Shown here: piece by piece, positions 43,294 to 62,071 of the stretch
How the letters are laid out: each line of letters opens with the position of its first letter
Numbering within the stretch: the first letter of the stretch is position 1
NCBI GenBank assembly: GCA_025462885.1
Contig: JAOAPN010000013.1
Span: forward strand, 124,001 to 188,000
Source of the DNA: Acidobacteriaceae bacterium
GTDB taxonomy: Bacteria > Acidobacteriota > Terriglobia > Terriglobales > Acidobacteriaceae
Direction of reading: 5' to 3'
DNA length: 64,000 bases
Translations under genes and position numbers: made by a program
The notes under the pieces: model-generated
What the model was told of the DNA's origin: nothing
What the model saw: only the letters and a program-made list of their open reading frames with translations
The model's database searches: none

Positions 43294-44487
43294 CTACAGC
43301 GCCGCCTTGGCCCGCAGCACCAGATCCACAGCCTCTTCCGTTGTCTTACCCACCGCCGAAAGATGCCCCATCTTCCGCCCCTTGCGCGGCCGCAGCTTCT
43401 CATACAGATGCAGCCGAACCCCCGGCACTGCCAGCGCTGCATCGAAGTGCGGCTCTCGCGCCGCGCCGGCCTCATCCAGCCAGAGATCGCCCAGCAGATT
43501 CGCAATCGCCGCAGGCTGTACCACCTCGACCTCGCCGAGCGGCAGGCAGCAGACCGCCCGCACCAGTTGCTCGAACTGGCTCGTCGGGCAGGCCCGTTCG
43601 CTTGCGTGATAGCTGTTGTGCGGACGCGGCGCAAGCTCATTCACCAGCAGCTTGCCATCTTTCGTGCAGAACAACTCCACCGCCAGAATGCCTTCCAACT
43701 GGAAGGTGTCGGCAATTGACTCCGCGATCTCCCGCGCTTCGTCTGCCATCGCATCGGTCAGCGGAGCCGGCATTACGCTCCACGCCAGGATCTGCTCTTC
43801 GTGGTGGTTCCATGCCGCGGGATAGACCCGCACCTCGCCCGTCGGAGAGCGCGCCACCAGCACTGAAATCTCGCGCTCCAGCTCGACGGCCTTCTCGACG
43901 ACACCAGCGCCTTCGCCGAGCGCAGACCAGGCGTCCTTAACCTCATCCTCACGCGCGGCTCCGGTCTTGAAGCCGACCTTGCCCTGACCGCGTCCGTCGT
44001 ATCCACCCGTCGCGCTCTTGCAGAAGCAGCGTCCGCCCAGCGCTTCGACCGCGTCGCGGACCTCGTCGAGCGAGCGCACCGCGCGGTACTCCCCGATCGG
44101 AAAACCGTTGCGCTTCAGCCAGTCTTTCTGCTCAATGCGGTCCTGGATGATGGCCAGCATCGCACCGCCCGGACGTACCGGCGCAAAGTGCGCTGCCGCT
44201 TCCATACTGGCCTGCGAGATCTGCTCGATCTCCAGCGTAATCACGTCGCATCCGCGCGCCAGGTTCGCGGCCTCGCGGCTGTCGTCCCAACCGGCCTCGA
44301 TGCAGCCATCCACCACGAACCGCGCCGGGCATGCGGGGTCGGGGTCGAGCACCAGGATGCGGTAGCCCATGCCACGCGCCGCCATCGCCGTCATGCGGCC
44401 AAGCTGTCCGCCGCCAAAGATTCCGATCGTAGCGCCGGGCAAAATCGGCTGCGCCTTATGCATCTGCTTTGCTTCTGTATCCGCCAC
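43294..44487 (-). CDS. purK: 5-(carboxyamino)imidazole ribonucleotide synthase
   Basis: A 397-residue ATP-grasp enzyme of purine synthesis that carboxylates AIR to N5-CAIR. It shows TIGIFGGGQLGRMTAMAA, KSATGGYDGRGQ and the ATP-grasp catalytic strand VELFCTKDGKLLVNELAPRPHNS. The start is taken at GTG 44487, two bases after the purE stop, because the frame further upstream only overlaps purE. An ATG at 44463 is a possible later start. It works with PurE encoded just upstream. Confidence 0.95.
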   Translation of the reverse strand: MADTEAKQMHKAQPILPGATIGIFGGGQLGRMTAMAARGMGYRILVLDPDPACPARFVVDGCIEAGWDDSREAANLARGCDVITLEIEQISQASMEAAAHFAPVRPGGAMLAIIQDRIEQKDWLKRNGFPIGEYRAVRSLDEVRDAVEALGGRCFCKSATGGYDGRGQGKVGFKTGAAREDEVKDAWSALGEGAGVVEKAVELEREISVLVARSPTGEVRVYPAAWNHHEEQILAWSVMPAPLTDAMADEAREIAESIADTFQLEGILAVELFCTKDGKLLVNELAPRPHNSYHASERACPTSQFEQLVRAVCCLPLGEVEVVQPAAIANLLGDLWLDEAGAAREPHFDAALAVPGVRLHLYEKLRPRKGRKMGHLSAVGKTTEEAVDLVLRAKAAL

Positions 44488-44489
44488 GC

Positions 44490-45041
44490 TTAATTCCCAA
44501 CCTTCTTGGTTCCCAAATCTTTCGCAGCCAACTCCAGATCGTCCAAACCCTGCGCCAGCACTTCGTCGCGCCGTGACGCACGCCACGCGATCAGCTTGTC
44601 GCGGAGCGCAACATCGCCTGCCGCCGCCAGCATAGCGACCGCCATCAAACCGGCGTTGGCGGCACCCGGGGCACCAATCGCCATCGTCCCGACGGGTACG
44701 CCCTTGGGCATCTGCACGATGCTTAACAACGCATCCATGCCCTGCAGCGAGGTCACGGCAACCGGCACGCCGAGCACCGGAACGACCGTCTTCGCCGCCA
44801 GCATGCCGGGCAGATGCGCTGCGCCGCCGGCTCCGGCGATAATCACGCGCAGCCCGCGCCCGACGGCGCTTTCGGCGTACTGAAACAACAGGTCCGGTGT
44901 GCGATGCGCCGAGACAACGCGGGCCTCATGCGCCACGCCAAACTCCTGCAGGATCTCGACCGCAGCGCGCATTACGCTGTAATCGCTTCGACTTCCCATC
45001 ACTATTCCGACCAGCGGCTCTTCGATCTGCGGGGCGCTCAT
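44490..45041 (-). CDS. purE: N5-carboxyaminoimidazole ribonucleotide mutase
   Basis: A 183-residue class-I PurE that converts N5-CAIR to CAIR. It has [38 protein letters not shown] and [14 protein letters not shown], which form the active site of the family. It is first of a purE-purK-small-gene operon, with a TAA-GC-GTG junction to purK. Confidence 0.97.
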
Positions 45042-45091: not shown

Positions 45092-45307
45092 TCAGCGCCT
45101 GACGAAATCGATCCCCACATGCACCAGCGCCAGCAGTCCGCCGAACGCCCCGGCTAGTCCTTTCATTCGCTGAACCGTTCTCTCGTGCTGGCCGACGCGG
45201 TCCTCCAACTGCGTCAACCGCCCCGGCTGGCCCTCGCCCAGCAATTGCTTCATCTGGCTCTGCAGTACGCGCAGCTCTGCCAGTACCTGGCCTTCGAACT
45301 CTGTCAT
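45092..45307 (-). CDS. XhlA-like small membrane protein (phage-type)
   Basis: A 71-residue protein: a charged coiled-coil region (QLLGEGQPGRLTQLEDRV) and one C-terminal membrane helix (MKGLAGAFGGLLALVHVGI). This is the layout of haemolysin XhlA/holin-associated proteins of phages. It is the last gene of the leftward phage-derived cluster and lies just upstream of purE. Confidence 0.55.
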   Translation of the reverse strand: MTEFEGQVLAELRVLQSQMKQLLGEGQPGRLTQLEDRVGQHERTVQRMKGLAGAFGGLLALVHVGIDFVRR

Positions 45308-45363
45308 TGCTCTCTCCTTTTTATCTTTTGTGTTTAGGCGTATTGCTGGAAGATTTAAGTGCC

Positions 45364-45420
45364 AGGTGCGCCCTGACGCCGGGCGGGCGCCACTTCGTGG
45401 GGTATTGGACGCTTCGTGTA
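45364..45420 (+). repeat. REP-like hairpin element, family 1, copy 6
   Basis: Plus-oriented copy between two phage-type genes, with one base lost near its end (CTTCGTGTAGG instead of CTTCGCGTGTAGG), which weakens the third hairpin. Confidence 0.88.
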
Positions 45421-45436
45421 GGCAGGTGAAATCGTT

Positions 45437-46222
45437 TTAGCTGACCGCCAGTCGCGTGAACACCGCACTTGAAAATCGCGAGTAGACCGGTGGCGTCGAG
45501 CCGTCGTACATCCGCACGTAGTACCGCTCCACCTGGCTCTCGCGAGGAATCGAGAAGCTCCGCACCGGACTCCGCAGCACCAGGTCCTGATCGACCTGCG
45601 GGCCGAAGTCCCAGTCGCGCCGCCGCACCTCGAACCCGCCGCCCGCAGGCGGAGCCATTCCGGTGTCCACCTGTAGCGCGGTCTCGGTTGCGACGACCAC
45701 CTGCAACTGCTGCAGGTTCGCGAGCACGTTGCTGGGTGCAGTGGACGCGGTCTCGGGCAGCAGCGCGTCTGCGGCGATCGCCTCAGACAACGTCAGCCCC
45801 AGGCTCTCGGCCCAGTCGTTGGCGAACTCGATCCGGTAGGTCAGAACCTCGGGCGCAGCCATGCCGTCCACGATCGAGACCCGCCGCACCAGCACCATCG
45901 TCTCCTGGCCGCCGCGCGTCAGGGTCAGCAGATCCCCCGGCCAGACGTCTTCTTGACTCGCGGGATTCACCGCCTCATAGTGACCCGCAATCGCCGCCGC
46001 ACGGCTGGAGGCGAAGCTCAGGATCGCCAGCGCCGCGCTCTCGCAGTCCTCCGAGCAACGCGCCGGTGGCCGTAGCACCTTGCCCAGCCATGCCGCGCTT
46101 CCCGGAGCCCCGCCCTCAGCCTCCGCCGCCACGCTGGCGCTATCCTCCAGTCGCGCGACCGACCGCCTGGAACTGTAGTTCAGCGCGCCGTTGCCATCGA
46201 GGTTGTCGAACGTTACTCTCAC
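45437..46222 (-). CDS. Putative phage tail/baseplate-associated protein
   Basis: A 261-residue protein with no named domain. Its start GTG overlaps the portal stop (GTGA), so it belongs to the same translation unit. The segments TYRIEFANDWAESLGLTLSEA and the C-terminal RSFSIPRESQVERYYVRMYDG resemble beta-rich tail-associated proteins. That label is mainly from context and is not proven. It could be the remnant C-terminus of a larger host-specificity protein. Confidence 0.5.
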   Translation of the reverse strand: MRVTFDNLDGNGALNYSSRRSVARLEDSASVAAEAEGGAPGSAAWLGKVLRPPARCSEDCESAALAILSFASSRAAAIAGHYEAVNPASQEDVWPGDLLTLTRGGQETMVLVRRVSIVDGMAAPEVLTYRIEFANDWAESLGLTLSEAIAADALLPETASTAPSNVLANLQQLQVVVATETALQVDTGMAPPAGGGFEVRRRDWDFGPQVDQDLVLRSPVRSFSIPRESQVERYYVRMYDGSTPPVYSRFSSAVFTRLAVS

Positions 46223-47472
46223 GCCGTCACCCCCGCGAGGGGAGCCAATCCACGCATCGCCCGTACCTCATCGACCGTCAGGACGCCGGCGCGCAGCAGC
46301 TCGGTGTGGATCTGGACCTCCTGCATTTCGTCGCGACTCTCCAGATCGTTCCAGCAGAATTCGAACTCGCGCCAGCCCAGCTTCTTGGCGAAGAGGTCGC
46401 GGGTGATGTGCTCGGCCAGCAGCTTGGCCACCGGCACCACCGCGCTCTGGAAAGCTTGGTCGGCCATCTCGCCTGCGGTCGAGCGGTTCACATCGTGCTG
46501 CAGACCGAGCATCATCGGCGGCAGCTCGAAGGCATTTGCGATCATGCGGATCAGCGTATCCTGCCAGGCCAGCCGGAGATCGGCGTCGGTGCCACCGGCG
46601 AAACGCAGCACCTCGGGCTTCTGCTCGCAGCTCAGCAGCGGCACGCGGCCGGTGCCTTCGATCTCGTCCTGCCACCAGCGGATGAGGCGGTCATGCTGCT
46701 CGGGCGTCGCCTCGTTCAGCCACAGCGCGTACTGAACCACGGAGTTACTGGCCAGCCGCCCGGCGTAGCGGTTGGCGGAGAGAAACTGGTTGACCGTCTC
46801 GAACGCCACTTCGAGCCGCCCCAGTCCGAAGGCCGTGTGGGTGCGCGGATTCAGCCGCACATACATCAGCTCGTCGTCGCGCAGCGAGATCATCCCTTCG
46901 CCGCCCAGCCGGCCGGTCGCCTGCGCGTACCGCGGTTTTGCGGGGTCGCCGCTCCATGCGCCATCGATCTGGATGGTCGCGCCATCAACGGCCCACAGCC
47001 GGAAGGGCCGCGCCGCGTCGCCCGTGGCCTCCATTTCGATAGCACCGAAGCCGCCTACCAGCAGGTCTTCGAGTACCTGCTCCCACAGCACACGAAAGCT
47101 GTCCGCGGCGTTCGGCTCCTCCAGGCAATGCCGCAGCGCGGCAAGCTTCTGCGCCGCATCCGGGATCGACGCCGCGTCGAAGCCACGCCGCACCCGCACC
47201 TGCCAGTCCATGCTGGCGATCCGGTCCTTCACCACGTTGATGGCGCGGCGCACCACGGGCGTCTCGGCCAGCTTGCGCAGGTTCGCCGGAGTCGGCTTGG
47301 GCAGCGCATTCTGTCCCGACCTGCCCTGCGGGTTATACGGGGTGAAGATCGAAGGCAGCACCGCCGTCTTGCGGTCCCGCTCCGCTGAAGCGGCCGCATC
47401 TACATTTTCCATTGCAAGCTCCACGCCCGCGAACCGCTCCCAAACACCCTTGCCCCAATCCTGAATCCCCAT
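46219..47472 (-). CDS. Phage portal protein
   Basis: A 417-residue portal-type protein. RKLAETPVVRRAINVVKDRI, DLLVGGFGAIEME, WAVDGATIQIDG and FELPPMMLGLQHDVNRSTAGE are features of HK97-type portals, which form the ring through which DNA is packaged. The start ATG 47472 has GGAGG seven bases upstream. The start and family length look intact. No capsid, head protease or head-tail connector gene follows, which a working phage would need. Confidence 0.83.
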   Translation of the reverse strand: MGIQDWGKGVWERFAGVELAMENVDAAASAERDRKTAVLPSIFTPYNPQGRSGQNALPKPTPANLRKLAETPVVRRAINVVKDRIASMDWQVRVRRGFDAASIPDAAQKLAALRHCLEEPNAADSFRVLWEQVLEDLLVGGFGAIEMEATGDAARPFRLWAVDGATIQIDGAWSGDPAKPRYAQATGRLGGEGMISLRDDELMYVRLNPRTHTAFGLGRLEVAFETVNQFLSANRYAGRLASNSVVQYALWLNEATPEQHDRLIRWWQDEIEGTGRVPLLSCEQKPEVLRFAGGTDADLRLAWQDTLIRMIANAFELPPMMLGLQHDVNRSTAGEMADQAFQSAVVPVAKLLAEHITRDLFAKKLGWREFEFCWNDLESRDEMQEVQIHTELLRAGVLTVDEVRAMRGLAPLAGVTA

Positions 47473-47551
47473 CGCTCTACCTCCCTTTCGCGTCACCACC
47501 AATAAAAAAAGGCACAGCCCAAAAAGGACCATGCCAACGACATCCCAAACT

Positions 47552-47600
47552 CACAACTCACAACTCACAACTCACAACTCACAACTCACAACTCACAACT
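47552..47600. repeat. Seven-copy heptanucleotide tandem repeat
   Basis: Seven uninterrupted copies of CACAACT (GTTGTGA-type on the minus strand). The repeat overlaps the stop codon of the DUF3037 gene (47593-47595). Because every copy supplies an in-phase TGA, copy-number change leaves the protein unaltered but changes the 120-base spacer to the portal gene. Confidence 0.97.
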
Positions 47601-48444
47601 CCACCCGCGCCGTCTCCGCGATGCGTGCCAGGTCGCTTACGGTCATCACCCGAATCTCCTGGCGCTCCATGGCTTCGACTCCGAAGCGATATCGCTCGGT
47701 GGCTTCATCGTCCTCGCCCGAGACCGACCGCAGCGGCTCGACGATAGCCGTCAGCTCCAGCCTCGCCTGCTCGATGCGGGCGACCCCCTCGCGCAGTTGC
47801 GGAGCCGAATAAGCCAGCCCCTTGGCGGCTTCGACATCTCCTTCGAGCGACACCGCGTGAAACATCCGAATCATTCCTTCCGTAGCCGACTCGCTGCCGA
47901 CCCGGTAGCCGCAGTCGATGCGCATCGGATCGCCTGCGCGGGTGTAGGGTGCGGCGGCGATGCGTTTGCGCATCAACGCCCACGCGCCAGTGCGTTCGAA
48001 CTCCGTCCGCATCACTGCGGCGATGGCGGCGCGTCCGGTCCTTCTGCGCTCGACCTTCACCTTCAACGGCTCGACGTACATGCGCAGCAACTGCTCCATC
48101 TCGGCGGCCATGCTCTCCGCCAGGCAGGCGCGCGCGGGCGTCAGTTGCAGCGAGTTCGACAGCGTATCCTCCAACATCTCCATCACCGGCTTCAGGCCGT
48201 TCGCGCCTTCGTGCAGCCGCTCTGCGATCTCGCCTTCGAGTGCCTCCAGCAGGCCGATGTCTGCATCTGCGTCCATGCAGCGGACACGGCTCCAGTCACG
48301 CGTAAAACGGATTAGCGGCGCAGCCCCCCGGTCGGGTGCCAAACCCGCCTCCCGCAGGACTACGCCGATGTTCGTAAACTCGCCCTTCACTACATCCGGC
48401 ACATACCGGACCAGGAAGAACTCGCAAGCCAGCCGCTCCGCCAC
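47593..48444 (-). CDS. DUF3037-domain protein
   Basis: A 283-residue protein; the N-terminus ACEFFLVRYVPDVVKGEFTNIGVVLRE is the DUF3037 signature. The middle is helical and charged. DUF3037 proteins are frequently encoded beside HipA-like kinases, as here, where the gene starts 20 bases after the HipA-like stop. Start GTG 48444 has AAGGAGAAGG upstream. Its role is unknown; antitoxin-like binding or being a substrate of the kinase are possibilities. The tandem repeat at its 3' end is described separately. Confidence 0.8.
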   Translation of the reverse strand: MAERLACEFFLVRYVPDVVKGEFTNIGVVLREAGLAPDRGAAPLIRFTRDWSRVRCMDADADIGLLEALEGEIAERLHEGANGLKPVMEMLEDTLSNSLQLTPARACLAESMAAEMEQLLRMYVEPLKVKVERRRTGRAAIAAVMRTEFERTGAWALMRKRIAAAPYTRAGDPMRIDCGYRVGSESATEGMIRMFHAVSLEGDVEAAKGLAYSAPQLREGVARIEQARLELTAIVEPLRSVSGEDDEATERYRFGVEAMERQEIRVMTVSDLARIAETARVEL

Positions 48445-48464
48445 ACCTTCTCCTTAGCCGCACA

Positions 48465-49340
48465 CTACATTACAAATTTTGACACTCTATTCAGTCCATC
48501 CAACGTTACAAATTGCGATGGCACGACGATCGTTCCTTGCTTCGCCCACATCGGGAATGGCGCGCGGTCCGAGTCGCGAAAGCGCACGATCAACTCCCGC
48601 ACCCGCGACCTCCGCTCCAGCATCTGCTCCATCAGCCGTTCGAGGGTGGACATGTCGCCACCGTACCACTCGGGCGGCACGGCCTCGGCGATCGCCCACA
48701 GGGTCCCGGCCGGCATCGCCTCGATTCGGCTGAGCCACGGCTCGAAGCTTTGCCAGCCCGTCACCCGCGCGTAGACCGCGTTGCGCTGGTAGACGCCCCG
48801 CAGCGGGCTATCCGGAAAGGTCCACTCGCCCGCGTTGAAGCAGAAGCCCTGGTCGATAAAGCTGGCCCGGTACTTGCGCTCGCGGGGCCGCCGCTCGAAG
48901 ACCGCCTGCCGCCCGTTGCAGTTGCCCGCCCACTTGTCCAGGCAGAGCATTCCGGCGAACTCGTCCAGGTTGCGCACCTCGGAGAGCTGCGGCTCGGGCA
49001 GGTAGTCCACCACCTGTCCGGGCATCAGGCCGCCGACAAACTGGCTGCCGAACTGCAACCCGGCGACGTACCGCTCGCGGGCTCCACGCGCCCCTTCGAC
49101 GTGCATCTCGGGCGAGTTCGCGATCAGCCACTCGGTCACCTCGACCACGTCGCTGACCGGCACCGTCAACCCCACCACCGCCGCCAGCCGCGTGGCGATC
49201 AGCTCGTTCGCCAGCACCCGAAGATGCTGCGGATTGTTCTGGAACTTGACGACCCATAGGCGGCTGTCGGCGCCCAGCATGAGCTGGCTCTGCGCTCCAC
49301 CCCGCATCCGACGAATCGCCTGCACCGCCAGAACCGCCAC
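48465..49340 (-). CDS. HipA-like kinase-fold protein
   Basis: A 291-residue HipA-related protein (HipA_2 type). GADSRLWVVKFQNNPQHLR holds the nucleotide-binding Lys strand. CLDKWAGNCNGRQAVF matches the catalytic loop D-x3-GNxx, and SFIDQGFCF the metal-binding D-x-G. True HipA phosphorylates glutamyl-tRNA synthetase and causes persistence. This shorter type lacks the classic HipA N-domain and no HipB is adjacent. DUF3037 follows in the same operon. Start is GTG 49340 with GAGG upstream. The position between terminase and portal genes is notable. Confidence 0.78.
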   Translation of the reverse strand: MAVLAVQAIRRMRGGAQSQLMLGADSRLWVVKFQNNPQHLRVLANELIATRLAAVVGLTVPVSDVVEVTEWLIANSPEMHVEGARGARERYVAGLQFGSQFVGGLMPGQVVDYLPEPQLSEVRNLDEFAGMLCLDKWAGNCNGRQAVFERRPRERKYRASFIDQGFCFNAGEWTFPDSPLRGVYQRNAVYARVTGWQSFEPWLSRIEAMPAGTLWAIAEAVPPEWYGGDMSTLERLMEQMLERRSRVRELIVRFRDSDRAPFPMWAKQGTIVVPSQFVTLDGLNRVSKFVM

Positions 49341-50236: not shown

Positions 50237-51763
50237 TTATCTGTGCGAGACAAGCCATTCTGCTCGTGCTGCTTGCGCTATGGCCATTGCCATCAGGCAG
50301 TCATCGTGCGCGCCGTTTGCTGCGCCGGTTCTGCTGCCGGGGTGGTTCACGAACGTCCGGCATTCCGCGAGCAGGCGTTTGCTGGAGAAGATCTGCGGCG
50401 TCTCCACTAGCAGTGCGCCCATGCGGCTTACCATTCCCGGCTTGTTGCCGGCGGTGGTCAGGAATCCGGCGTCGCCTCCCTGGGACCACACGTTGGTGTA
50501 GTGCTCGGTCGCGCTCAGATAGGCGAGCACGCCGGAGCCGTGGTTGTTGCGTTCGACGGCGATCCAGGCCTCTCCGCCCTTCATGTTGCAGCCGTACTCG
50601 CGGCCCAATGCAGCGGCGACTTTGGCCAGCTCCAGCACCGGAAGCCTTTGCTGCAGCTCCGCGCACTGGCGGCCGCCGCGCAGCTCGATCACCTGCACTG
50701 CGGCGAAGTCTCCGTCGACCCCGCCCCCGGCTGTGTCTACGGCTATGAGGTACTCCCGGTCCGGGACGGGCGGCAGCCAGATCTGCAATGAACCTCCGCG
50801 ACGGCGCTCGGTCGGCTCGTAGACCTCGGTCATGCGTTGCTCGATCGCCTCGACGTCGAAGCAGCATTCGCCGGTCGCTTTGAAGCAGCTCTCCGGGCTC
50901 TCGGCGAACTCCTGCGACCGCAGGCCCCGGTAGCTGGTCTCGAGGCCGCGCCGAAAGCCGATCTGCGCGGCGGACAAAGTGTGCCGCTGCATCAGTCCCA
51001 ACTCTTCCTCGGAGAAGTTTGTAACTGAGTTTGCTACATATGCCTCCTCCATCCACCACGGGAAGAAGTGCGGCACCACACCGCTGCAATCCGGCCCGGC
51101 CAGACCGGCGCGCATCCACTCCTCGTAGAAGCATCCATAGGCCCCGTTGGGCGTGGACTCCAGCACCATCTCGCCGCGGGGCGATAGGGCAGCGCGCAGC
51201 CCGGCCAGCGTCGCGGCTGCATCGCCGGGCCAGCGAGCTACCTCGCTGCAGTGCAGGTTCTGCATGGTCAGGCCGCGCCCGGCGCTTTCGTCTGCTGCGC
51301 TGACTACGCGAAACTCGCTGTCCAGCTCGGGAAAGCGCATCTGGCCGACGTTGGCCAGGCTGCGCCGCAGTGGCCCCTTGCGCATCTGCTCCGGCAGGCA
51401 CTCCCAGAAGCGCTGCACCATGCGGAAGATGCCCTCGGCTGCCTCGCGGGTGTGCGCCACCTGCACGGTCAGGACGCCCTGCGCCGTAATGGTGCGCAGA
51501 AAGAACCGTCCCGCCACCCAGGTCGTCATGCCCATCTGCCGGGCCTTCAGGACGATGTTCTGCCTGCCCCGCCCCGCCTCAAACGTTCGCTGCGCCTCGT
51601 TCGCGACCAACGGCCGTTCCACCCCGTCGCGGTCGCGTACGCGTAGCAGTTCTTCCGCCAGTGCTACGGCTACGGTCACACCGTTCAGCTTTGGCGGACG
51701 CTCTTCCAGCATCCTGCCGAGCCGCAGCAGGTCCTCCACCTTCCCAAAATCAAGATCAAGCAT
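50237..51763 (-). CDS. terL: Phage terminase large subunit
   Basis: A 508-residue terminase-like protein that would cut and pump DNA into procapsids. The ATPase Walker A-type motif KARQMGMTTWVAG is near residue 85. The nuclease domain shows AVDTAGGGVDGDFAAVQV and AVERNNHGSG, and ends NGAHDDCLMAMAIAQ, with the Asp residues expected for a two-metal RNase H-like nuclease. Start ATG 51763 has GGAGA upstream; the longer frame to 52063 translates the terminator and the tail gene and is rejected. No small terminase is visible. Confidence 0.85.
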   Translation of the reverse strand: MLDLDFGKVEDLLRLGRMLEERPPKLNGVTVAVALAEELLRVRDRDGVERPLVANEAQRTFEAGRGRQNIVLKARQMGMTTWVAGRFFLRTITAQGVLTVQVAHTREAAEGIFRMVQRFWECLPEQMRKGPLRRSLANVGQMRFPELDSEFRVVSAADESAGRGLTMQNLHCSEVARWPGDAAATLAGLRAALSPRGEMVLESTPNGAYGCFYEEWMRAGLAGPDCSGVVPHFFPWWMEEAYVANSVTNFSEEELGLMQRHTLSAAQIGFRRGLETSYRGLRSQEFAESPESCFKATGECCFDVEAIEQRMTEVYEPTERRRGGSLQIWLPPVPDREYLIAVDTAGGGVDGDFAAVQVIELRGGRQCAELQQRLPVLELAKVAAALGREYGCNMKGGEAWIAVERNNHGSGVLAYLSATEHYTNVWSQGGDAGFLTTAGNKPGMVSRMGALLVETPQIFSSKRLLAECRTFVNHPGSRTGAANGAHDDCLMAMAIAQAARAEWLVSHR

Positions 51764-51793
51764 TGCATTCTCCCCACCCGTTGCACCTCTTTG

Positions 51794-51832
51794 AAAAAAG
51801 CGTGGCCCCTCCCACCCAGGAAGGGGCCACGC
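51794..51832 (-). terminator. Intrinsic terminator between the tail/SGNH gene and terL
   Basis: On the minus strand GCGTGGCCCCT pairs with AGGGGCCACGC (51800-51832), followed by TTTTTTC. It ends the large tail gene's transcript and separates it from the terL operon. Confidence 0.93.
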
Positions 51833-51861
51833 ACTGTTGCTCTCTTTTTCTTCACCCGTCG

Positions 51862-54800
51862 CTACATCTCCCAGTGACATCCCGATACGGTCCTCGGATT
51901 TGGAACATCGCGCAGTGTTAGCGATCCGTTGGACGGCACGGTCACCGCCGTTGCCAGCGGAAGCCCGTTGATCAACTGGTTTCCGTTCAACGCCACGACG
52001 CCCACCGGGTATGCGGACTGCAGATTGGTGACGCGATACACCGCGCCGCTCTGCCCGGTGCAATCCGGTAGCGTCAAGGTTCCCGCCGCGGTGACGCCGG
52101 AGACGCTCACCACGTCATCGCCCGCCGCCATGGAGTACGGCAGCGACGTCACCCGGTGCGGATTCATATCGTTGTATCCGAAGGTGTAGTTCAGCGCGTT
52201 GCTGGCCGCGTTGGCCAGCAGCATCTGCCCCGCCGCCGTCGGGTGGGTCTGGTCTGCCTGGAAGTAGGTGGTGTTGGCGTTTGCCCCGTCCGCTCCCAGC
52301 AGTGGGTTCGCGCCGAAGTCGATCACGCCATCGGCCCCGTTGTTCTTCGCGTTCGAGAGGATCAGGATGTCCAGTGCGTTCTTGAAGGAGTCGAAGCTCG
52401 CCCCGCCCGCGCCGATTCCCGCCCGTGAGACCAGCGTTCCGACGAACACTCTGCAGCCTGCCTGCTTCATCGTCTGCACCGTTCCGGCGATCTCGCCGAA
52501 GACGCTCTGCGGTGTCGCGGTGGCGAAATTGGCAAAGTCGTTGTCCCCGCCCGAGATTACATAGACGGAAGGCCCCCCGCTGGTCCTGCACATCAACGCG
52601 GCCCGATTGGACTCCGACCCATCGATCGCCTCCACCAGGATCCCGGAGATGCCAAGGTTCACGATGTTGTAGGCCGGTTGATTGGTGAGGGTCATGTTCT
52701 GCAACCACGACTGCGAGGGTGACAACCCCAGCGCGGCGGTGATCGACGTGCCCGCCGCAAGCAACTGCGGAGCGGCCAGGTTGACCGGCACCGGCTGCAC
52801 CGGCACACCTCGCGAAGCTACCTCTGTCTGGATCGTCCGGCTTGCCGCGAGGATGGCCGCTGCTGGCAACTGCGTCGGGTAGCTCACCAGCCGATAGAAC
52901 GTGCCCATGAATCCCGAGCCCGTAAACGGCCCCGTATTGCTCGATCCCAGCATGTAGTTCCCCGCGCTCTGAAATCCGAACGAAGCCCCCTGCGCCGTGT
53001 AGCTGATCTCATTGCCATCGAGGTACACGTGGTCCACGTTGCCTCCGCCCGTTCCCAGCACGAAGCCGAGCACATGGAATCCGCTCATCAGGTTGGGCGA
53101 CTGCGTGAGGTGCTGCCCGTTGGCAAAGACATCCGGAGCGTACGCGTAGGTGCTGGGCGCGCCGTTCTTCGAATACATCAGGTTCACGCCGCTGCTTCCC
53201 AGGCTGCTGGAGATCAGCACCGGGTACAGATTGGCCGCGCCCGTCGAAGTGGTGAGCGGGTTAATGTAGATCGCCGCAAGAAACGTCTTCGCTCCGTTCA
53301 ACGCCGCCGGTAACTGCACGTTCTGCTGGTCGGTAAACACCATGCCGGTCTGCGTCCAGGTTGGACTCAACGTTCCAGAGCCAAGCGTCGCATGGTTGGC
53401 GTTGCCACTGTTGTCGCTCAACACGGTGCCCGAACCCTGCAGGAAGTTGTAGTCCGCCAAAGCGCCCGCGGGAAGTTGTGCTGTGGTGGATCCGCCGCTG
53501 ACGGCGTTCAAAGCAGCGGGAGGATTGACCCACACTCCGTCCTCACGCAGATAGCGGCTGGCACCTGCGGTCGCTCCGGGGTCCGGTACCGCGCCCGGGC
53601 TATGTCCACTGCCGGAGGCGCCGAACAGCGGGAGTTGCGATGCCCCGAACGTACCGTTGATAGTGGTGGCATTCACCGTGGTCGCGTTGATGGTCCCGGC
53701 GGTGAATGCCTGCGGCGTAAAGCTGTATCCCGCGCCGCGCATCTGAAGGGTGAGTGCGCTGGTCTGGGGCTTGTATTGCACCGTATCCACACCGGCGTTC
53801 GAATCCAGTTCGAAGAGGTTGTAGCCGGAGTTCCATTTGCCGCATCCGTGGGAGTTGCAGTGGACCGAGAAGACGCTCTGCTCGCCCGCCTGCATGTCGA
53901 AGGTGCGGTTCCAGATCCCCGTTGATTCGTAAGCTACGTCCGGCACGGTGTGGGTTCCGCCGCCGCCCAGGTAGCTCGAGGCGGGCACAGCGTTGGCGAT
54001 GCTCCAGCCGCGCATGCCGGGTCCGACGTTGCGCTGGTACTGCATGCCGGCCCGTGCAAAGACGGTTGGCCGCGGCGTCGTCTGGCCGACGAACTCCGTA
54101 TCGCCCTGCACGCTCTCCTGGTAGTAGTGCGGCTGCTCCACGGGATCGTTCGCGGCCCACTGGACAGAGTTTGGTGCCAGGGTCATCTGACCGTCGACCT
54201 TCTTTGTCGTTGCGTTGTAGACGCTCAGAACTTCCGCCATGGGATACAGCGCGTAGCCGCCGGTGAGGATTCCAACGGTGCCTCCGGAGCTGGTGCTGTC
54301 CGGCCCGGTCGCCGCGTAGGTCAAGGAGTTTGGCCCCGTGGTGATCACGACAAACTGACCGTTATAGCTGGCGTCCGAGACCCCCGCGACCGTCAGCGCG
54401 AGGGCGCTCACATCCGCCGGCAGATTGCCCGCCGTCGTCACTGTCACCACGTTCCCGCTGCGTGCGATCGAACTGATCGCCAGGTTCATGTTGAGGTACG
54501 CACTCGTCTTGCCACTGACGCCGACGACTGCCGTTACACCACCCGCGTAGTAGAGGCCCGTCGCGGAGTAAGAGCCGATGACGGGAAAGACCTGGCGAAT
54601 CCCATCGGCCGTGTCTACCGTCTGCTCCAGACCGTAGCCGCACAGCCCGCCGATGGCAATCGTAGCGTGCGTCGCATGCACCTTGTTCAAGGTCATCTGG
54701 AGGTGGGTGGCATCGATCACCGTGTAGGGAGCCATCTCATAGTTGTGGGGCTCGTATCCGCTCGGCCGGTCCGCCAGGCAGGCCAATCCACTGTGGTTGG

Positions 54801-55479
54801 TGATTGCTCCGGTGTTGGTTACAAAACCTGAGGGAACTCCGCTGGTATCGATAGCGACCGACGCAGTTCCGGGGGCAATATTGTTTGGCCGCGACCCGAT
54901 CAGACTTGCCGTCAAAAGAAAGACGCTCACCGGAAACGAAGTGCCACTGAAGGTCGCGGTAGGACCTGGGATGGCGGTGCCACCGCCAAGGATCGCTCCG
55001 GTGGACAGGAGACGTACCGGGTTGGTATCGATGAGATAGCGTCCATTGCCCTGCGTTCCAGCCGCCGAGGTCGGCGTCAGCGTCACCAGGGTGGAACCGG
55101 CGGTGCAGCCCGTGCTGCAGGTTCCGTGAAAGACCTCCGTATCTTCCTGGACCTGCAGGTCGAAGGGGTGCGTTCCCTCGTCCGCCTCGTCGCGGAATCC
55201 GCCCGAGGCCTTGAGGAACTGCGATCCGATAAGGCAGTCTCCGACGCCGTAACAGTTGATGGCGTTGGGCGTCAGGACGTGCTGCCCCGCAGTGTTATAC
55301 GTGCCTGTCACCGAGAGGGCGCTGTATCCGGTCTTGAAGTAAGGTACCTTTTCCAACTGCCCGGGAAAGAGGTTGGAGCCGCCGTCCAATCCTTCATGCG
55401 TTAGAACCAGCCCGAACGATCCGATGATCTCCGAGCCTGTCCGTTGCGAGGTAGCCGCCGTACTTTGGGTCGAGACCAC
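51862..55479 (-). CDS. Large tail-fibre-like protein with LamG-type and SGNH-hydrolase domains
   Basis: 1205 residues from GTG 55479, the first standard start codon. The same frame continues open and protein-like to 55920 (for example FASQYLTGNGDNGIANAV), so the real N-terminus is missing or starts unusually. The N-terminal 650 residues are beta-rich and Gly/Ser/Thr-rich, with a collagen-free, tail-fibre-like composition. Residues about 670-870 look like a concanavalin/LamG domain (YNFLQGSGTVLSDNSGNANHA). An SGNH hydrolase follows: block I GTSIT near 910, block III GGDNDF near 976, block V DQTHPT near 1074. It could be an esterase on a receptor-binding tail protein. No secretion signal was seen. 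Confidence 0.65.
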   Translation of the reverse strand: MVSTQSTAATSQRTGSEIIGSFGLVLTHEGLDGGSNLFPGQLEKVPYFKTGYSALSVTGTYNTAGQHVLTPNAINCYGVGDCLIGSQFLKASGGFRDEADEGTHPFDLQVQEDTEVFHGTCSTGCTAGSTLVTLTPTSAAGTQGNGRYLIDTNPVRLLSTGAILGGGTAIPGPTATFSGTSFPVSVFLLTASLIGSRPNNIAPGTASVAIDTSGVPSGFVTNTGAITNHSGLACLADRPSGYEPHNYEMAPYTVIDATHLQMTLNKVHATHATIAIGGLCGYGLEQTVDTADGIRQVFPVIGSYSATGLYYAGGVTAVVGVSGKTSAYLNMNLAISSIARSGNVVTVTTAGNLPADVSALALTVAGVSDASYNGQFVVITTGPNSLTYAATGPDSTSSGGTVGILTGGYALYPMAEVLSVYNATTKKVDGQMTLAPNSVQWAANDPVEQPHYYQESVQGDTEFVGQTTPRPTVFARAGMQYQRNVGPGMRGWSIANAVPASSYLGGGGTHTVPDVAYESTGIWNRTFDMQAGEQSVFSVHCNSHGCGKWNSGYNLFELDSNAGVDTVQYKPQTSALTLQMRGAGYSFTPQAFTAGTINATTVNATTINGTFGASQLPLFGASGSGHSPGAVPDPGATAGASRYLREDGVWVNPPAALNAVSGGSTTAQLPAGALADYNFLQGSGTVLSDNSGNANHATLGSGTLSPTWTQTGMVFTDQQNVQLPAALNGAKTFLAAIYINPLTTSTGAANLYPVLISSSLGSSGVNLMYSKNGAPSTYAYAPDVFANGQHLTQSPNLMSGFHVLGFVLGTGGGNVDHVYLDGNEISYTAQGASFGFQSAGNYMLGSSNTGPFTGSGFMGTFYRLVSYPTQLPAAAILAASRTIQTEVASRGVPVQPVPVNLAAPQLLAAGTSITAALGLSPSQSWLQNMTLTNQPAYNIVNLGISGILVEAIDGSESNRAALMCRTSGGPSVYVISGGDNDFANFATATPQSVFGEIAGTVQTMKQAGCRVFVGTLVSRAGIGAGGASFDSFKNALDILILSNAKNNGADGVIDFGANPLLGADGANANTTYFQADQTHPTAAGQMLLANAASNALNYTFGYNDMNPHRVTSLPYSMAAGDDVVSVSGVTAAGTLTLPDCTGQSGAVYRVTNLQSAYPVGVVALNGNQLINGLPLATAVTVPSNGSLTLRDVPNPRTVSGCHWEM

Positions 55480-55880: not shown

Positions 55881-56588
55881 ATGAACTTTCAGGACCTCCA
55901 CGAACTGCTCCGTTTGGAACTCACTCGCCGTATCGACCAGGGCACGCTTACGGGCAGCCAGCTTGCCCGGCAGGCGGGGTTCCAGCAGGCGCATGTGTCG
56001 AATTTTCTCAATCGCAAACGCGCTCTTTCGCTGGAGGGGCTGGACCGGGTGCTCGCTTCGCAGGACCTCACTGTCGAGCAGGTGCTTCCGCTGGAGCTTA
56101 CGGCGGTGGCGGCGAAGGTGGCAGGCGATACGGTCGAAGTAGTGCCGATCGTCTCGCCGTCGGTGGCGATGGACGATGCGCGGATTCCGGCGTCGGCGGT
56201 GATTGAGACGCTGCAGGTCTCGGCGACGCGCCTGCGGGATAACCGGTCGCGGCCGTCGAAGAAGAATGCCAAGTGGCAGCGCTTCCTGGGAATTCGGACG
56301 GACGCCCAGCAGGCCGGGGCGATGGAGCCGCTGTTGACTCCCGGGGCGGTGGTGATTTTGGACCGGCACTACAACTCGCTGGCACCGTACCGGGCGCATC
56401 AGCCTACGTTGTATGCGGTTCGAGCGGGTGCTTCCCTGCTGATCCGGTTTGTGGAGTTCGATGAAGGGCGGCTGATTCTTCGGCCTTACTCGATGAATTT
56501 TCCGGTGCAGTTGCTGGCGCTGGGGGCGCATGAATCGCCGACGGATTACATCGTGGGGAGAGTTTGCATGGTGTTTTCGGAGTTTTAG
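55881..56588 (+). CDS. XRE-S24-type regulator with degenerate peptidase dyad
   Basis: A 235-residue CI/LexA-like protein. Residues 5-65 form an XRE helix-turn-helix (TLTGSQLARQAGFQQAHVSNFLN). The C-terminal 130 residues are S24-like. The S24 nucleophile sits in SMEPx(L/I)xPG in active members; here the string is GAMEPLLTPG (residues 146-155), so Ser is Ala147. The expected Lys is Arg189 in LLIRF. Self-cleavage is therefore unlikely. It is divergent from the tail gene, whose open frame overlaps its 5' end. Confidence 0.8.
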   Translation: MNFQDLHELLRLELTRRIDQGTLTGSQLARQAGFQQAHVSNFLNRKRALSLEGLDRVLASQDLTVEQVLPLELTAVAAKVAGDTVEVVPIVSPSVAMDDARIPASAVIETLQVSATRLRDNRSRPSKKNAKWQRFLGIRTDAQQAGAMEPLLTPGAVVILDRHYNSLAPYRAHQPTLYAVRAGASLLIRFVEFDEGRLILRPYSMNFPVQLLALGAHESPTDYIVGRVCMVFSEF

Positions 56589-59970: not shown

Positions 59971-60002
59971 TTGGGGTTTCTTTAAAGGCTATTGCAAGGG
60001 CC

Positions 60003-60059
60003 AAGTGCGCCCTGACGCCGGGCGGGCGCCACTCCGTGGGGCTCTGGACGCTTCGCGTG
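60003..60059 (+). repeat. REP-like hairpin element, family 1, copy 7
   Basis: Plus-oriented copy between convergent DUF4126 and thioredoxin genes. The central hairpin is altered (CACTCCGTGG). Confidence 0.87.
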
Positions 60060-60073
60060 TAGGGAATCGGCTT

Positions 60074-61935: not shown

Positions 61936-61976
61936 GCTGGAGCGGATTCCTTCGGTGGATCGTTTAAGTAAGTGCC

Positions 61977-62033
61977 AAGTGCGCCCTGACGCCGGGCGGG
62001 CGCCACTTCGTGGTGTGTTGGACGCTTCGCGTG
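61977..62033 (+). repeat. REP-like hairpin element, family 1, copy 8
   Basis: Plus-oriented near-consensus copy in the gap between convergent genes. Confidence 0.9.
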
Positions 62034-62071
62034 AATGAAACTATTTTGCTGCTAGCAATTTGCTCTACGCG

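Follow-up and report, generated by a model that had tools for sequence, protein, structure and literature searches.

Published tests show that HipA-like kinases paired with a DUF3037 protein can protect against phage. Without its HipA kinase, the Retron-Sda1 operon no longer defended against Bas51, and deletion of the DUF3037 gene was toxic (PMC12548924). In Escherichia coli, the DefensePredictor system DS-6, renamed HipAD, lost defence when the predicted catalytic residue of DS-6A was changed (PMC13092281); that paper attributes HipAD to a study of prophage defences in E. coli. The deletion results make a kinase toxin held by DUF3037 the reference model for such pairs, which PADLOC files as candidate PDC-M66. 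Here we describe a related pair in a 64,000-nucleotide stretch ("the window") of an Acidobacteriaceae bacterium (assembly GCA_025462885.1, contig JAOAPN010000013.1, positions 124,001 to 188,000). The pair lies in the middle of a set of phage head- and tail-type genes that run in one direction. This block is inherited on the chromosomes of the family, and it behaves like a domesticated phage of the gene transfer agent (GTA) type rather than a moving prophage.

Like HipAD, the window pair combines a HipA-like kinase with an adjoining two-domain DUF3037 partner, whose C-terminal domain follows DUF3037, and like the Retron-Sda1 pair it is a two-gene unit. Unlike HipAD, it has an Asn in place of the catalytic Asp of the kinase (N142), scores weakly against PDC-M66, and is a near-core, inherited locus amid phage head genes. 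The DS-6B partner carries a DUF1829 C-terminal domain (PMC13092281), whereas here Pfam gives no DUF1829 match and the predicted fold is endonuclease-like. The Retron-Sda1 pair adjoins a type III retron, and its DUF3037 C terminus resembles the DNA-binding protein of that retron type (PMC12548924), whereas the window pair adjoins terminase and portal genes. Because of N142, we do not file the window pair as HipAD proper, only as one possibly working alike.

The two genes lie 20 bases apart on the minus strand between the terminase and portal genes (Table 1), as the original prediction had it; a check of the open reading frames (ORFs) found both at the stated coordinates. An AAGGAG stands ahead of the GTG of the DUF3037 gene. 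Sixty regions from relatives were read, roughly one for each genus plus a few additional copies, and 49 of them had terminase, kinase, DUF3037 and portal together. We then examined 134 loci, namely the window and 133 distinct loci from relatives (140 cut to 133 for identical kinase ends); because the kinase was used to fetch all 133, the share with an intact kinase is uninformative. DUF3037 was intact in 126 of these 133. All 104 loci that had the four genes had them in one order and on one strand, and the arrangement is therefore not due to chance. By content, 113 of the 134 rows had phage genes, 13 had the pair only, two had the kinase only, and six were unclassifiable. The pair-only rows L087 (genome G032) and L094 (G006) are extra copies, whose genomes hold the phage block elsewhere. 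The original prediction had set the phage context against a plain chromosomal one, and the result is divided: most rows lie in the phage block, yet the block is itself a resident chromosomal locus.

Gene content downstream was read in ten regions of 57.5 kb. Most had genes for proteins of about 200 amino acids (protease position), about 140 amino acids, and about 323 amino acids (the putative capsid), followed by a head-tail adaptor (phrog_442, 8e-15), three more genes and a hub-like protein of about 770 amino acids. A protein of 1000-1700 amino acids was encoded upstream of the terminase, and in most regions genes for a divergent XRE-type regulator and for a sigma-region-4-like protein stood at the block edge. 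Profiles identified portal, terminase and head-tail adaptor among the head genes, and no tape measure was recognised. Capsid, protease and tube were assigned by position, in the case of the putative capsid together with size and conservation. In three genus relatives the capsid block is placed upstream of the terminase, and the pair keeps its place. L145 and L148 could be read from host gene to host gene, and the ORFs between are of structural or surface type only; L151 has the same content up to the end of its stretch. No integrase, replication or lysis genes were recognised in L145 and L148, where ORFs were read by eye and no integrase profile was run. In L038, L039, L175 and L186, the host genes c26, Gfo/Idh and c24 separate the sigma-like gene c14 from the remainder of the block, as though host and phage genes had been mixed by small rearrangements.

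Where the flanks are readable, recurrent host neighbours are a Gfo/Idh oxidoreductase and c24 upstream, and purE, purK, 2-oxoacid dehydrogenase E2 and others downstream. Conserved host genes were present in 11 of 12 phage-type loci with more than 12.5 kb read downstream, and in 15 of 58 with more than 9 kb upstream. Kinase distances correlate with those of three flanking host genes (r 0.84, 0.83 and 0.87; n 25, 34 and 34), with none of 300 permutations as high. Distances for portal, terminase and putative capsid correlate with the same host genes at r 0.66-0.91. Correlations were weaker with a fourth host gene (7-13 rows). Mantel comparisons with cluster c13 were weak: r was 0.26 for portal (69 of 300 permutations as high) and 0.23 for terminase (34 of 300), both with n 8, and 0.19 for capsid (n 7). 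Among genera with at least two rows, the window's excluded, g18, g28, g29, g50 and g54 each formed their own clade in the kinase tree, and g7 (of whose rows one is an extra copy), g32 and g64 did not. The kinase nearest to that of the window was from Granulicella sp. dw_53 (L139).

This inheritance bears on the claim, made in the original prediction, that the location suggests cargo of a phage for defence or superinfection control. The link to phage defence stands for relatives, in which HipA/DUF3037 systems act in defence (PMC12548924, PMC13092281), and there is a precedent for the setting in the gut phages named 'Gratiaviridae', five of which have a HipA-family kinase between portal and capsid genes (PMC8008677). 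The precedent shares with our locus a HipA-family kinase within a head-gene block, so that expression is probably late. It differs in that the neighbours are an ATPase and a glycosyltransferase, with no DUF3037 in the relevant text, and in that it belongs to a phage family and not to a resident block (PMC8008677). Both proteins of the window pair match PHROG viral families (phrog_3162, 1.3e-9; phrog_5137, 7.5e-9), and nine distinct IMG/VR contigs, which are metagenomic predictions, carry the block. Neither kinase nor DUF3037, however, had a tblastn match (E 0.01) in 50,697 phage records. The putative capsid protein had no match in those records, and the portal had distant ones only, at 22-29% identity in the best rows. 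The putative capsid gene is single-copy, the divergence of the genes parallels that of the host, no integrase was recognised in L145 or L148, and the pair is kept where phage genes are gone. Ordinary mobile cargo of a temperate phage is thus a very unlikely description of the pair, and we rejected it on copy number, inheritance and retention.

Retention is seen where the same host site holds the pair alone, as it does in L160, L163 (Granulicella sp. S156), L178 (G. mallensis), L173/L040 (Terriglobus albidus group) and L046. L170, L156, L157 and L161 look pair-only as far as their contig ends. On a tree of 137 kinases, pair-only loci make up at least four lineages, with L087 and L094 not counted on. 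Two of these lineages fall inside one well-supported and mostly phage-bearing clade, and the phage genes were therefore lost there. Stop codons interrupt the portal gene of L139 and both portal and terminase genes of L172, and none interrupts the pair in either locus. The pair either arose before the phage genes or has outlasted them. Within pair-only groups, five comparisons gave ratios of nonsynonymous to synonymous substitution rates (dN/dS) of 0.07, 0.12, 0.09, 0.08 and 0.03 for the kinase; those for DUF3037 were 0.09, 0.08, 0.06, 0.10 and 0.07. Between pair-only groups, where synonymous sites are near saturation, dN/dS was higher (0.18 and 0.13 for the kinase, 0.21 and 0.13 for DUF3037). 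Judged from these ratios, the pair-only lineages hold the pair under purifying selection.

The pair might also serve the phage-derived particle itself, the kinase and a DNA-binding partner timing or limiting head assembly, packaging or release. The constant slot between terminase and portal, kept in the three rearranged genus relatives, would fit such a regulator, and the putative capsid gene accumulates divergence about half as fast as purK (slope 0.48, n 20), which suggests that particles still matter. Selection on the pair where the phage genes are gone argues the other way, as do the block without a pair in G032 and the pair in sister family f81 with no portal or capsid match (both described below). 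We consider regulation of the particle unlikely.

Prevalence was counted in one set of 150 genomes of the same family at E 1e-5 or better. Kinase matches, a few of them short, were found in 108 of the 150, in 90 of 110 good assemblies and in 59 of 79 genera. DUF3037 matched in 102 genomes and the portal in 91, three of these weak or distant. The putative capsid was found in 87, with exactly one match in each, and 80 of the 87 also had the kinase; in the other seven the contig ends ahead of the kinase's place. Kinase and capsid were on one contig in 70 of these 80 genomes and at most 12 kb apart in 69, the exception being G032. Among the best 80 of 421 named relatives, nearly all were Acidobacteriaceae or unnamed Acidobacteria, with a few other names; the genera were Edaphobacter, Granulicella, Terriglobus, Acidipila and Bryocella. 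Two loci of genus g54, L070 and L091, have no DUF3037 adjoining the kinase; in G108 the contig does hold a DUF3037 gene, at a distance of about 42 kb.

Outside the family, kinase matches occurred in 237 of 298 genomes of the order, including 13 listed genomes of f81 (the listing leaves out the 41 order genomes without a match), and in 46 of 297 genomes of the phylum. Phylum matches above 250 bits were limited to the window's family, two genomes of family f2 and one of f43. The others were short and weak, and the 13 of these that were fetched had the canonical loop. In eight f81 genomes chosen for the kinase, DUF3037 adjoined it in five and c24 adjoined it in three; in f2 the kinase stood beside c24 in both loci. 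A portal search of 11 outside genomes gave no match, and its positive control worked; a capsid search of 11 outside genomes, which had no positive control, gave none either. The f81 pair with neither match implies that the pair predates the phage block or outlived the phage genes there too.

The window kinase matches Pfam HipA_2 in its N-terminal part only (E 2.8e-6, 27.2 bits, cut-off 27). A HipA-like fold is supported by the structure predicted from 25 family sequences, which has a mean predicted local distance difference test (pLDDT) score of 83. With Foldseek, the best match of the model was PI4KIIalpha (E 5.6e-6), with HipA at 9e-5; with VIA-align, Z was 14.8 for CtkA, 14.5 for PI4KII and 11.8 for HipA. 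Profile comparison with canonical HipA_2 (97% probability) aligned N142 on the catalytic Asp. The usual HipA_2 loop is N-x-D-R-T-x-x-N, and in this clade it is N-x-N-G-R-Q; the window kinase reads DKWAGN-C-N142-G-R-Q, with Asn at the catalytic Asp and no Asn at +5. K32 (VVKF) and the metal Asp D163 (FIDQG) are unchanged in all 25 aligned sequences. Among 154 distinct kinase sequences, Asn replaces the catalytic Asp in 144, in each case with Gly next, and Asp is kept in ten. The two f2 loci and the f43 locus have Asp. The spread of the Asn form through the clade means that the change is old and mostly kept, and is not the decay of one gene. The statement in the original prediction that the biochemistry of the pairing is undescribed has been overtaken by published function for the relatives; it holds for this clade with its altered loop, for which we found no published test.

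A second HipA_2/DUF3037 pair in the same genome (contig C5, 111584-112709; L001:1399-2632) is canonical. Its loop is the usual one, NVDRTPRNAN, and is intact; its DUF3037 is short. Three canonical sequences (L001, L238 and L239) were trimmed on alignment of their set. Weaker matches resembling the C5 pair recur in many relatives.

In the DUF3037 protein, Pfam finds DUF3037 (E 6.3e-19) as the only match and no helix-turn-helix (HTH), so that by Pfam it is not the HipB-like HTH antitoxin partner of a HipBA system. In its model (pLDDT 90), the N-terminal DUF3037 domain is followed by a C-terminal domain at about residues 128-283. Structure comparison, which barely covered the N-terminal half, related the C-terminal half to restriction endonucleases and their relatives (PspGI and BstEII, Z 8.7; Cdn1, 8.1; XPF, about 7; ERCC1, 6.8). 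With Foldseek, the full model had nothing in the PDB at E 0.001 or better, the best being BstEII at 8.7e-3. No (D/E)xK was spotted in the third core strand on reading the alignment. From the model, we infer that the C-terminal domain may bind DNA rather than cut it.

Our preferred reading, which we hold tentatively and rate as a little short of probable, is that a HipAD-like guard pair has been domesticated here and that, in this family, it is probably transcribed together with the resident GTA-like head operon. The pair would act as a two-protein guard of the HipAD kind, in which DUF3037 would sit on DNA through its endonuclease-fold C-terminal domain and neutralise the kinase by holding it. 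The trigger could be phage attack, phage DNA or induction of the block, and the freed kinase, a presumed toxin, would arrest the cell or modify a protein of phage or host. The place between terminase and portal would couple the pair, in this family, to the late head genes.

Several observations weigh against this guard. The strongest is the missing catalytic Asp, which makes a plain kinase toxin doubtful, given that DS-6 needs its predicted catalytic residue. The kinase may instead be weakly active, be activated otherwise, or act by binding nucleotide and partner. The window pair is weak against PDC-M66 (28 and 33 bits, as compared with 74 and 36 bits for the C5 pair, whose kinase fits PDC-M66A much better, at 74 bits against 28). 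Defence genes are usually patchy, unlike this near-core pair. Eight of the 108 kinase genomes had no DUF3037 match, which argues against a strict toxin-antitoxin need. The GTA-like nature of the block is touched by the putative capsid, which has no family, PDB-profile or phage-record match; for capsid and protease, Pfam, PHROG and PDB profiles gave nothing convincing. In the closed-type genome G032, a full block has terminase and portal flanking other ORFs and no pair (L273:8356-12564); its pair-type kinase, together with a divergent DUF3037 (L087), is 3.7 Mb distant, so that the link between pair and block can break. Host neighbours differ in the deeper half of the family, and we therefore claim a fixed site only for the half with Edaphobacter, Granulicella, Terriglobus and Acidipila. 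A single chromosomal site for the whole family found no support in the deeper half.

Some of these observations also feed the main rival of the guard, in which kinase and partner are a pseudokinase couple with a host task unrelated to phage, needed by the cell and settled beside c24 before the block arrived. The Asn form was found in all eight f81 loci and in 126 of 137 rows of the kinase tree, under purifying selection, and the kinase lies beside c24 in the f2 loci and three of the eight f81 loci, in genomes with no portal match. The genomes that have the kinase and no DUF3037, the separation of pair and block in G032, and the parallel divergence of kinase and host genes also fit. A host task leaves unexplained the constant order of terminase, kinase, DUF3037 and portal, and the ten Asp sequences and the at least eight Asn/Asp state changes needed on the tree suggest that catalysis may still matter at times. 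We regard this rival as somewhat unlikely.

Asn-Gly is the residue pair most prone to deamidate. An extension of the guard reading, which we think quite improbable, supposes a working inherited GTA-like particle and, in its packaging operon, an order-wide pair, a guard held off by Asn-Gly; slow deamidation to Asp, or a change induced by the partner, could then arm the kinase late in the life of the protein or cell.

Table 1. Genes in and around the phage block of the window.
Feature	Coordinates	Strand	Remarks
purK and purE	43294-45041	-	Host genes that several genera have downstream of the block
Small membrane-like protein, 71 aa, conserved	45092-45307	-	End of block
Hub/fibre-like gene remnant	45437-46222	-	First gene after portal
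Phage portal protein	46219-47532	-	Pfam Phage_portal, E 2.5e-52
DUF3037 protein	47593-48444	-	283 aa, GTG start; DUF3037 domain at residues 11-124
HipA_2-like atypical kinase	48465-49340	-	291 aa, GTG start
Orphan ORF, 189 aa	49545-50114	-	Between terminase and kinase; outside conserved block
Large terminase subunit	50237-52063	-	phrog_2, E 5.6e-24
1205-aa large protein	51862-55479	-	Weak GDSL-lipase match, below cut-off
XRE/Cro-C1-type HTH protein, divergent	55881-56588	+	Upstream block edge, conserved; Pfam matches below cut-off

In the window itself the block is reduced, and the putative capsid gene has no match anywhere in the genome. The part of the remnant at 45443-46168 corresponds to residues 588-826 of an 828-residue hub/fibre-like ORF that follows the portal in the genus relative L035. 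The terminase scores 20.3 bits against Pfam Terminase_6C, under the cut-off of 22.6; its listed TTG start overlaps the preceding gene, and the true start is probably internal. The 1205-residue protein is related to the large protein upstream of the terminase in relatives, a tail-fibre-like or surface protein. Relatives of this GDSL/fibre-like protein (L053:1254-6485, L035:2118-6647, L273:12580-15006) start with what resembles a Sec signal peptide, which is odd for a tail fibre. The XRE-type protein is likely a regulator. The orphan ORF is a foreign insert, with a membrane-like start and a G+C content at third codon positions of 0.49, compared with 0.87 for the kinase and 0.76-0.87 across the neighbours; it had no match in 60 relatives' loci searched and no family match worth naming. 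A tandem 7-base repeat, AACTCAC, lies between portal and DUF3037 (47548-47601), and the DUF3037 gene takes its end and stop codon from it. A 71-base dispersed repeat occurs in three copies (45357-45427, 59996-60066 and 61970-62040; 80-87% like the reference copy), one of them at the downstream edge of the phage block.

Blocks of this kind have been recorded before as prophages. To judge from scaffold name and coordinates, our locus L167 lies within the KBS 89 member (scaffold00005, 60-90 kb) of acidobacterial 'prophage Cluster 153' (PMC5900883), and the Terriglobales provirus 'group (ii)' was described as akin to proviruses known earlier from acidobacteria, that of Koribacter among them (PMC11924767). 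In the text available from these papers they are called (predicted) prophages or proviruses, and inheritance and pair-only loci are not discussed; neither 'HipA' nor 'DUF3037' occurs in the main text of either. An Acidobacteriaceae-linked contig in a Sphagnum virome paper is a possible further sighting that could not be confirmed (PMC12142844).

The comparison that we favour is with gene transfer agents such as RcGTA, which are likewise single-copy, inherited chromosomal head/tail blocks. No replication or integration genes were recognised in L145 and L148, nor in L151 up to its end. The single capsid match in each of the 87 genomes and the correlation of distances agree with this, the shared flanks being limited to one half of the family. 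Our block differs in being known from its genes alone and in having no recognised tape-measure gene. We know of no kinase/DUF3037 pair in any GTA. Among the matches listed in our literature search (subscription papers and preprints lay outside it), neither a GTA-like particle nor a HipA with a replaced Asp was described for Acidobacteriaceae.

What was supposed to be phage cargo is thus recast as a long-term resident, a defence-type pair in an inherited head operon that is kept after the phage genes are lost. This raises the question of whether abundant soil acidobacteria make a gene-transfer-agent-like particle. It also raises that of the role of a HipA-family protein whose catalytic Asp is replaced across most of an order, while its gene appears to be held under purifying selection.

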